Of a stretch of 64,000 nucleotides of DNA, positions 3,690-16,888 are shown one piece after another (the stretch's first letter is position 1; each line of letters starts with the position of its first letter). A model generated the notes under the pieces. It had not been told where the DNA came from. It made no database searches and was given only the letters and a program-made list of their open reading frames with translations. Origin of the DNA: an uncultured Verrucomicrobiota bacterium (GTDB lineage: Bacteria; Verrucomicrobiota; Kiritimatiellia; SS1-B-03-39; UBA6053); contig CAKZLZ010000111.1 in NCBI GenBank assembly GCA_937127435.1, positions 1-64,000 of the forward strand. Direction: 5' to 3'. Position numbers and translations under genes: made by a program.

Positions 3690-3752
3690 GTTCCATCGTC
3701 CCGATGGAAAACGAATGCTTCGGATTAACCTCGGGCCGCGGTTAATCTTTTT
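3690..3752 (+). terminator. Tandem hairpins downstream of RND permease; the second is a Rho-independent-like terminator
   Basis: TTCCATCG-TCC-CGATGGAA, then GATTAACC-tcgggccgc-GGTTAATC followed by TTTTT. Confidence 0.65.
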
Positions 3753-15194: not shown

Positions 15195-15518
15195 TATGGT
15201 GCTGCCCCTTAGGTTGGAGCGTTCGTTAAGTTCGTCTAACTAGGTTGGGGTTTTGGTTGAGTTGAGGCCGACTGTGTATGGTTCTGGGGTCTATTTGTTC
15301 AGCGATCGAAGCCGCATCACAGGGTTGTCAATCGTTCTCCACTTCTTCGCGGACTTCGTCAAGATCTTTGAACCCGTGTATATTCAAAAGTCTATGCCGG
15401 TTGGCGCGGGGATCGTCGCGGGCAGCACAGGCATTCTTGTCTGTGGTCCCCCAAAAGGGGCGCTTTTCTCTTTTCAATCACCCATTGGAAGCGATAGGAA
15501 CATGAGTTCAGTATAATA

Positions 15519-15844
15519 TTAGGCGAATTATGAAAAACCCACTTTTAGCATTCACATTAAATTTTTTCTTTCCAGGTGCTGGACTAGCATATCTTGGAAA
15601 GTGGAGGTGGGGTTTTATAAACTTAGGTTGCGTCTTGCTAATAGGTGTCATCCTGGCATTTGCGCTACCTGATGATTTGTTTTCTACATACAGCAACATA
15701 ATCGCTGCAGGTCTAGGAGGCGGGTCAGGTGGATTAGCGCAATCTTTGGCGACTCAAAGGAATCAGAAAATTAAACGAAATGAAGAAAAGGCCTAACGAT
15801 GCGTCCAAGCGCCCCGAGAGTACTCGGTCCGCTTGACTTGAGAG
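15519..15844 (+). mobile_element. Putative integron-like gene cassette (326 bp) with one ORF and an attC-like site
   Basis: Begins TTAGGC 11 bp before ATG; ORF stop TAA lies inside GCCTAAC of the attC-like site; ends at G|TT of GTTATCT. Confidence 0.6.
15530..15796 (+). CDS. Small membrane protein (cassette ORF)
   Basis: 88 aa, two hydrophobic segments (LLAFTLNFFFPGAGLAYLGKW, FINLGCVLLIGVILAFAL). Confidence 0.7.
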   Translation: MKNPLLAFTLNFFFPGAGLAYLGKWRWGFINLGCVLLIGVILAFALPDDLFSTYSNIIAAGLGGGSGGLAQSLATQRNQKIKRNEEKA

Positions 15845-15850
15845 TTATCT
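15791..15850 (+). other. attC-like recombination site
   Basis: GCCTAAC-GATGC-GTCCAAGCG-CC-CCGAG-AGTA-CTCGG-TC-CGCTTGAC-TTGAGA-GTTATCT: R''/L''/L'/R' architecture with an unpaired base in the L stem and 5/6-nt spacers. Confidence 0.65.
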
Positions 15851-15851
15851 C

Positions 15852-16133
15852 ATGAAGAAATTTAATAAAGCAGCTCCCGTCGCGTTCGTCCCGGGATGTC
15901 TGATTGCTTATATCTTTGCCATCATATTTGAAAATACAGATGCATTCTGGGAGATTAAATCTGATGTCTGGGGAAATTATATTTTTTTACCTTTTTGCGT
16001 GATCGGTTCGTTGTGGATGACGTACGTTCACAGGAAATCAAGATGGCTTCCATTGATGATACTGATGGCGATCCTGGTAGCAGGTGCAATCAGGCTTTTA
16101 TCTGAAATCATGTGGCGTGTATCTCTTGGATGA
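15852..16133 (+). CDS. Small hypothetical membrane protein
   Basis: 93 aa with TM segments; ATG follows the attC-like R' box. Confidence 0.6.
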   Translation: MKKFNKAAPVAFVPGCLIAYIFAIIFENTDAFWEIKSDVWGNYIFLPFCVIGSLWMTYVHRKSRWLPLMILMAILVAGAIRLLSEIMWRVSLG

Positions 16134-16269
16134 ACAGCAAGCCGCATGGAGTTTGAACTCGTAACCATACTATCACCAGAGTTCTCCTGACTTAGAGCGA
16201 ACAAACAAAAAGGATAATAATCACCGCTCAGAACGGGTCGGAGCGGGTGGACGTTTGCTGATGGGAAAA

Positions 16270-16372
16270 TTTAAACCACAGATCCACGCAGATTCACACA
16301 GAAGGTCGTATCCGCAACTTTTTGGTTTTCTAAGAATATCCGTGTTAATCTGCGTGCATCTGCGGTTTAAAA
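16270..16372. repeat. Inverted repeat of AACCACAGATNCACGCAGATTNACAC family
   Basis: TTTAAACCACAGATCCACGCAGATTCACACAGA ... TATCCGTGTTAATCTGCGTGCATCTGCGGTTTAAA; arms are near-perfect reverse complements. Confidence 0.85.
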
Positions 16373-16387
16373 TAATAAAGGGAGCTC

Positions 16388-16888
16388 ATGCCAAAATTTG
16401 AACATATTCGTCATCAGCCTCCCTTGGTTTTGGAGGAGGCGCGGCCCCTGATCATTGCCTGCAGTCCTTTAAGCAGTCATGTGAATTTATCCACCATCTT
16501 GCGGATGGCGGGTTGCTCGGGGGTTCAAGAGGTGATTGCGACAGGGAATGCGAAGATCAAAAATGCGATTGCGCGGGACAGTGCGGAAACCGTGAAGCTG
16601 ACGGTGAAAAACAGTTTGCCGCCGGTGCTCAAAAAGTTGAAGCAGCAAGGCTACATCTTGGTGGGACTGGAACAGACCACGAATTCGACGGTGTTGTCGG
16701 AATATGCTTTCCACCGGAAAACTGTGATCGTGGTGGGGTCGGAGAGGGAGGGTCTCTCCCAGGAAAATTTAGATTTACTGGATGCGGTGGTGGAGATTCC
16801 GGTGTGGGGCATGCCTTTTTCTTACAATGTTGCCACGGCCACCTCTTTGGCGATTTATGAATATTGCCGCCAATTTCCTGAAGGGTAG
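16388..16888 (+). CDS. TrmH/SpoU family RNA 2'-O-methyltransferase
   Basis: VIVVGSEREGLSQENLDLLDAVVEIPVWGMPFSYNVATATSLAIYEY SpoU motifs 2 and 3. Confidence 0.93.
   Translation: MPKFEHIRHQPPLVLEEARPLIIACSPLSSHVNLSTILRMAGCSGVQEVIATGNAKIKNAIARDSAETVKLTVKNSLPPVLKKLKQQGYILVGLEQTTNSTVLSEYAFHRKTVIVVGSEREGLSQENLDLLDAVVEIPVWGMPFSYNVATATSLAIYEYCRQFPEG

Follow-up and report, generated by a model that had tools for sequence, protein, structure and literature searches.

Results

The window, meaning the whole 64-kb stretch of DNA analysed here, carries a short integron-like array on its forward strand. It consists of an attI-like attachment site (nt 15453–15518), a gene cassette (cassette 1, nt 15519–15844) and a probable second cassette (cassette 2, nt 15845–16253), and occupies the interval between a DoxX-like gene and TrmH. 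Cassette 1 is 326 bp long and has a GC content of 44%, compared with 52% for the window. Its 88-aa ORF (nt 15530–15796) specifies a short membrane protein that weakly resembles TM2/DUF6677 (Pfam score below cut-off). A homolog with 54% identity occurs in another class of the phylum, outside any cassette, and none of the homologs found elsewhere sits in a cassette.

The attC site of cassette 1 (attC1, nt 15791–15850) comprises R'' (GCCTAAC, nt 15791–15797), a GATGC spacer, L'' (GTCCAAGCG, nt 15803–15811, with one unpaired base), an inner stem (CCGAG-AGTA-CTCGG, nt 15814–15827), L' (CGCTTGAC, nt 15830–15837), a TTGAGA spacer and R' (GTTATCT, nt 15844–15850). An earlier, sequence-only reading of this DNA had described this box architecture and had placed the TAA stop codon of the 88-aa ORF inside R'' and the start of the next small ORF 2 bp beyond R'; every element was recovered where that reading had put it, the stop codon at nt 15794–15796 and the next ORF at nt 15852, with R' ending at nt 15850. 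Integron integrases recognise the bottom strand of attC, and for attC1 this strand folds with −13.1 kcal/mol, against −5.8 ± 1.7 for shuffled sequences (z = −4.3, 0/200). A covariance model (R1) was trained on 22 attC sites outside the window, the window's own site being left out; it is only partly independent, since similarity to attC1 had served to recruit about half of these sites, the rest coming from a box-and-stem finder. Within the 64 kb of the window, R1 matched nt 15791–15849 and nothing else (43.4 bits, E = 3.3e-7; genome-wide E = 2.7e-5). A scan of nt 15200–16400 against Rfam gave no above-chance match at attC.

Cassette 1 begins with TTAGGC (nt 15519), the exact complement of GCCTAA in its own R'', as expected of a circle that closes at G|TT. 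When ATTAGGC is set against GCCTAAC there is pairing at every base contributed by the cassette, and the sole mismatch is the base supplied by attI (A for G). The 326-bp circle proposed in the sequence-only reading is borne out, nt 15519–15844 obeying the same R'/R'' rule as the other arrays of the genome (see below). With its attC boxes, unpaired base, bottom-strand hairpin and self-complementary boundaries, cassette 1 is by its sequence features a real mobile gene cassette, and its excision by IntI is predicted.

Cassette 2 (409 bp, 43% GC) extends from the attC1 crossover to that of a candidate second site, attC2. Its 93-aa ORF (nt 15852–16133) codes for a hydrophobic protein that could be assigned to no family: there was no NCBIfam match, no Pfam match over cut-off and no homolog among 388 genomes of the phylum. 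The candidate attC2 (nt 16212–16259) is degenerate, with R'' GGATAAT (two mismatches to the expected AGATAAC), a short stem (CCGCTC.../...GAGCGG, a 9-bp inverted repeat) and R' GTTTGCT. Model R1 missed it in the window search. An attC-like site of the sister genome G004 (L128:2287–2327) nevertheless aligns with it over 41 bp at 80% identity (E = 2e-4), and cassette 2 probably ends in the decayed attC2. Directly 3' of the cassettes is a further inverted repeat (nt 16270–16371), the 33-nt arms of which are 88% complementary (TTTAAACCACAGATCCACGCAGATTCACACAGA); similar palindromes occur on contig C199 of the window's genome (L017:9942–10039) and near an attC cluster of G004 (L128, around nt 3740).

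The attI and further attC sites came to light when the draft genome to which the window belongs (5.2 Mb, 236 contigs) was searched with nt 15400–15950. The segment nt 15453–15522 matched contigs C199, C82 and C227, in two cases just upstream of a tyrosine recombinase gene. Over the attI, the window is 86% identical to C199:6951–7020, adjoining an intact intI, 87% to C82:34984–35043, 77% to C227:9043–9104, also adjoining intI, and 81% to a site beside a split intI in another genome of the genus (G003:C170:13841–13908). In every copy the similarity breaks off no more than about 3 bp from the G|TT crossover (between nt 15518 and 15519 in the window), the pattern expected when different cassettes enter a shared attI. 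The window thus has an attI at the head of its array, with the crossover G replaced by A; the capture of new cassettes at this site is probably weakened. As regards a Pc promoter, a TATAAT overlaps the end of attI in most copies, but a promoter consensus scan reported no promoter there. The 258 bp upstream of the window attI are unique in the genome; they gave no plasmid match, and a short translated stretch within them matched no Pfam family.

The part of the query that covers attC1 (nt 15786–15861) had nine matches on contigs other than the window's, and several of these lay in pairs separated by about 800 to 1,900 bases. Across the genome, R1 returned 52 matches at E ≤ 1, and a threshold of E ≤ 0.12 left about 45. 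Among 56 aligned sites, 78.7% of stem cells were paired, compared with 57.0% in shuffles and 20–46% in slid controls, and all 12 pairs showed changes on both sides, in an alignment that was fitted to the model and so leans towards structure. In an integron array, the R' following an attC is part of the cassette that comes after it, and complementarity to the R'' of that cassette is expected. This rule provides a test that does not rest solely on recruitment by attC1 similarity. For 42 neighbouring pairs, complementarity was exact in 23 and reached at least 6 of 7 bases in 35, while shuffled pairings gave means of 1.0 and 4.2 (maximum 11 for the latter), which shows, at the sequence level, that the arrays are made up of true cassettes. 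The boxes next to the other attI copies follow the rule exactly: GTTACAG (C199), GTTGGCC (C82) and GTTAGTC (C227) are complements of the first R'' boxes CTGTAAC, GGCCAAC and GACTAAC. The sequence-only reading had remarked that the R' of attC1, GTTATCT, does not match the R'' of cassette 1. As R' belongs to the following cassette in a linear array, this mismatch is expected and is no defect, TTATCT being the start of cassette 2. Two outcomes that the same reading had raised against itself, a covariance score below background and a want of related attC sites in the genome or clade, are contradicted by the strong R1 score and by the abundance of such sites in both genome and genus.

No credible intI or remnant was found in the 64-kb window by tblastn with the genome's own IntI sequences, and a Pfam integrase search gave no match on the window's contig (C111). 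The attI is therefore present in the window while the adjoining intI of a complete integron is absent. The search for IntI elsewhere in the genome, which the sequence-only reading had suggested, was productive. Contig C199 carries a full-length gene (L017:5502–6884) for a 461-aa protein scoring 453 bits on TIGR02249 (cut-off 265), apparently the one intact integron integrase of the genome. A second intI, on C227 (L025:9174–10585; 413 bits), has an insertion of about 23 bp before the catalytic tyrosine that shifts the reading frame. On C82 (L018:6860–7045), attI and cassettes are accompanied by an intI reduced to its first few codons and the promoter region; this attI adjoins an ORF judged by eye to encode a PrmA-like methyltransferase. 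Phage_integrase matches on C21 and C132 were XerC/XerD-like and under the integron-integrase cut-off; the C132 protein lies near an attC cluster, yet scores 104 bits on TIGR02249, and was not taken as IntI. An ORF on C204 was also rejected, as it matches IntI over a short C-terminal piece only. The start of contig C199 (L017:1–2500) holds a DNA polymerase I ORF whose C-terminus looks unrelated, which may reflect a chimeric join in the draft assembly.

TrmH orthologs with 92–94% identity are present in two genomes, G004 and G002, and in both the DNA beside the gene is unrelated to the attI or cassettes of the window. The orthologs provide no clean empty site for the locus, and homologous DNA at the position of the cassettes is lacking from both genomes, which speaks against the alternative, also considered in the sequence-only reading, of an ORF ancestrally continuous with its flanks. 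G004 has an attC cluster of its own (C53, L128:2280–3690), which lies at a greater distance from TrmH, in the stretch bounded by that gene and the DoxX-like gene; in the window this stretch holds the cassettes. Given the unrelated DNA beside TrmH and this cluster, the locus is variable within the genus. The G004 cluster includes a RelE-like ORF (named by eye).

Discussion

The sequence-only reading had proposed a captured cassette or a CALIN-type remnant with no integrase in view. This is supported, but that reading overlooked the attI, the probable second cassette with its degenerate attC, and the integrases encoded on other contigs. Taken together, the data make it highly probable that a sedentary chromosomal integron in decay stands at this locus, with attI and cassettes retained and intI lost; cassette 1 may still be mobile in trans. 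A platform with intI, attI and array would once have stood here, and IntI would have inserted cassette circles at the G|TT crossover of attI, so that cassette 1 came to lie beside the attI, probably followed by cassette 2. Loss or replacement of intI and of all sequence upstream of nt 15453 would have come later, as would a G-to-A mutation at the attI crossover, leaving attI, a well-preserved cassette 1 and a cassette with a decayed attC. A parallel exists in the same genome at C82, where attI and cassettes remain and intI is a 5' scrap. Since cassette 1 has kept a foldable attC, the C199 IntI could act on it in trans, excising or rearranging it. It is conceivable, if rather unlikely, that the genome as a whole works as a distributed integron, in which the intact C199 IntI, with its predicted duplicated core-binding domain, would serve several attI loci, some without intI, cassettes being exchanged in trans.

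The attC1 hairpin lies in an intergenic gap 3' of the stop codon of a short ORF, and one alternative is a rho-independent terminator or a REP-like hairpin resembling attC by chance. No T-run follows the hairpin, however, and a terminator scan does not report it; the conserved unpaired base, the R boxes and the covariation also speak against this alternative. The covariance model, the R'/R'' rule across the arrays and the adjoining attI refute this explanation, to which we attach practically no weight. Off-target insertion is one of the routes to CALINs described by Cury et al. (PMC8618304), and an intact IntI is available in trans in the genome. The cassettes would then have been put into a secondary, non-attI site by an IntI from another locus, and the CALIN would never have been a platform. 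What lies to the left of cassette 1, however, is a 66-bp homolog of attI sequences that adjoin intI at two loci of the genome and in G003. The homology to the two intI-bearing loci favours integrase loss, and off-target insertion is very improbable.

A translocated or duplicated attI segment, moved with or without cassettes by recombination or transposition to a place that never had an intI, would account for the abrupt start of homology to the other attI copies near nt 15453, for the 258 bp upstream being found nowhere else in the genome and for the lack of any trace of intI or its promoter, in which the window differs from C82. Against this, neither transposon ends nor duplicated flanks were seen around the segment, and the C82 remnant and the frameshifted C227 gene show that intI decays in place in this genome, so that we regard translocation as improbable. 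In a draft assembly of 236 contigs a misjoin just upstream of attI is also possible, but the window attI differs by at least 13% from every other copy. Loss of intI from an integron formerly complete at this site remains the preferred reading.

Loci of this general kind are already known, from CALINs, from integrase decay in Xanthomonas and from integrons reported in Verrucomicrobiota (PMC8618304); the informative part here is the retained attI. A functional IntI acting in trans can mobilise CALINs (PMC12444791), and the default of IntegronFinder 2.0 for calling them is two or more attC sites (PMC9024848). Like CALINs, the window locus has attC-bounded cassettes and no integrase nearby (none in the 64 kb) and, in line with reports on degraded integrons, fewer attC sites than complete ones. 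It stands at the edge of the two-site threshold, with the confident attC1 counting as certain and the degenerate attC2, passed over by R1, counting on its BLAST match to G004 only. Unlike CALINs, it retains a recognisable attI, and given this attI we infer that it is more than a CALIN, namely a former complete integron. CALINs are common, and the routes proposed for them include off-target cassette insertion and intI loss; because attI is preserved in the window, integrase loss can be read from the sequence, and the locus helps to tell these two origins apart. Within one genome there are successive stages: an intact intI (C199), a frameshifted one (C227), one of which only the first codons remain (C82) and an attI alone (the window).

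A close published parallel is in the chromosomal integrons of Xanthomonas (PMC12444791), where intI is likewise frameshifted or deleted while the array persists, and separate CALINs occur elsewhere in the genome. The present case differs in belonging to another phylum and in the spread of several attI copies across a single genome, where two lack intI and another locus has an apparently intact intI. Within the genus, the sedentary chromosomal integron of G002 shares the attC family and the long IntI type, but is complete, its intI (C1:1733432) adjoining an array of at least 13 attC sites; its attI region has only the terminal ATGTT-type core in common with the window. Judging by titles and abstracts, the few papers in the literature searched that name both integrons and Kiritimatiellae are community or resistome surveys, and 'orphan attI' is a term used in none.

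The genome adds a little-studied lineage of Verrucomicrobiota with dozens of cassettes and a long form of IntI. An IntI is also carried by a genome of the same family (G006), and close full-length relatives include MAGs labelled Kiritimatiellae; the window most likely derives from a lineage of Verrucomicrobiota, perhaps of Kiritimatiellae. The integrases of the lineage (C199 and L030–L033) have an N-terminal extension of about 150 aa in which the SAM-like core-binding domain seems to be repeated: PF13495 matches at residues 42–101 (E = 2e-5, under the curated cut-off) in addition to the normal copy at 150–230, and in an AlphaFold model of the L033 relative, of low confidence, the same four-helix pattern appears twice.
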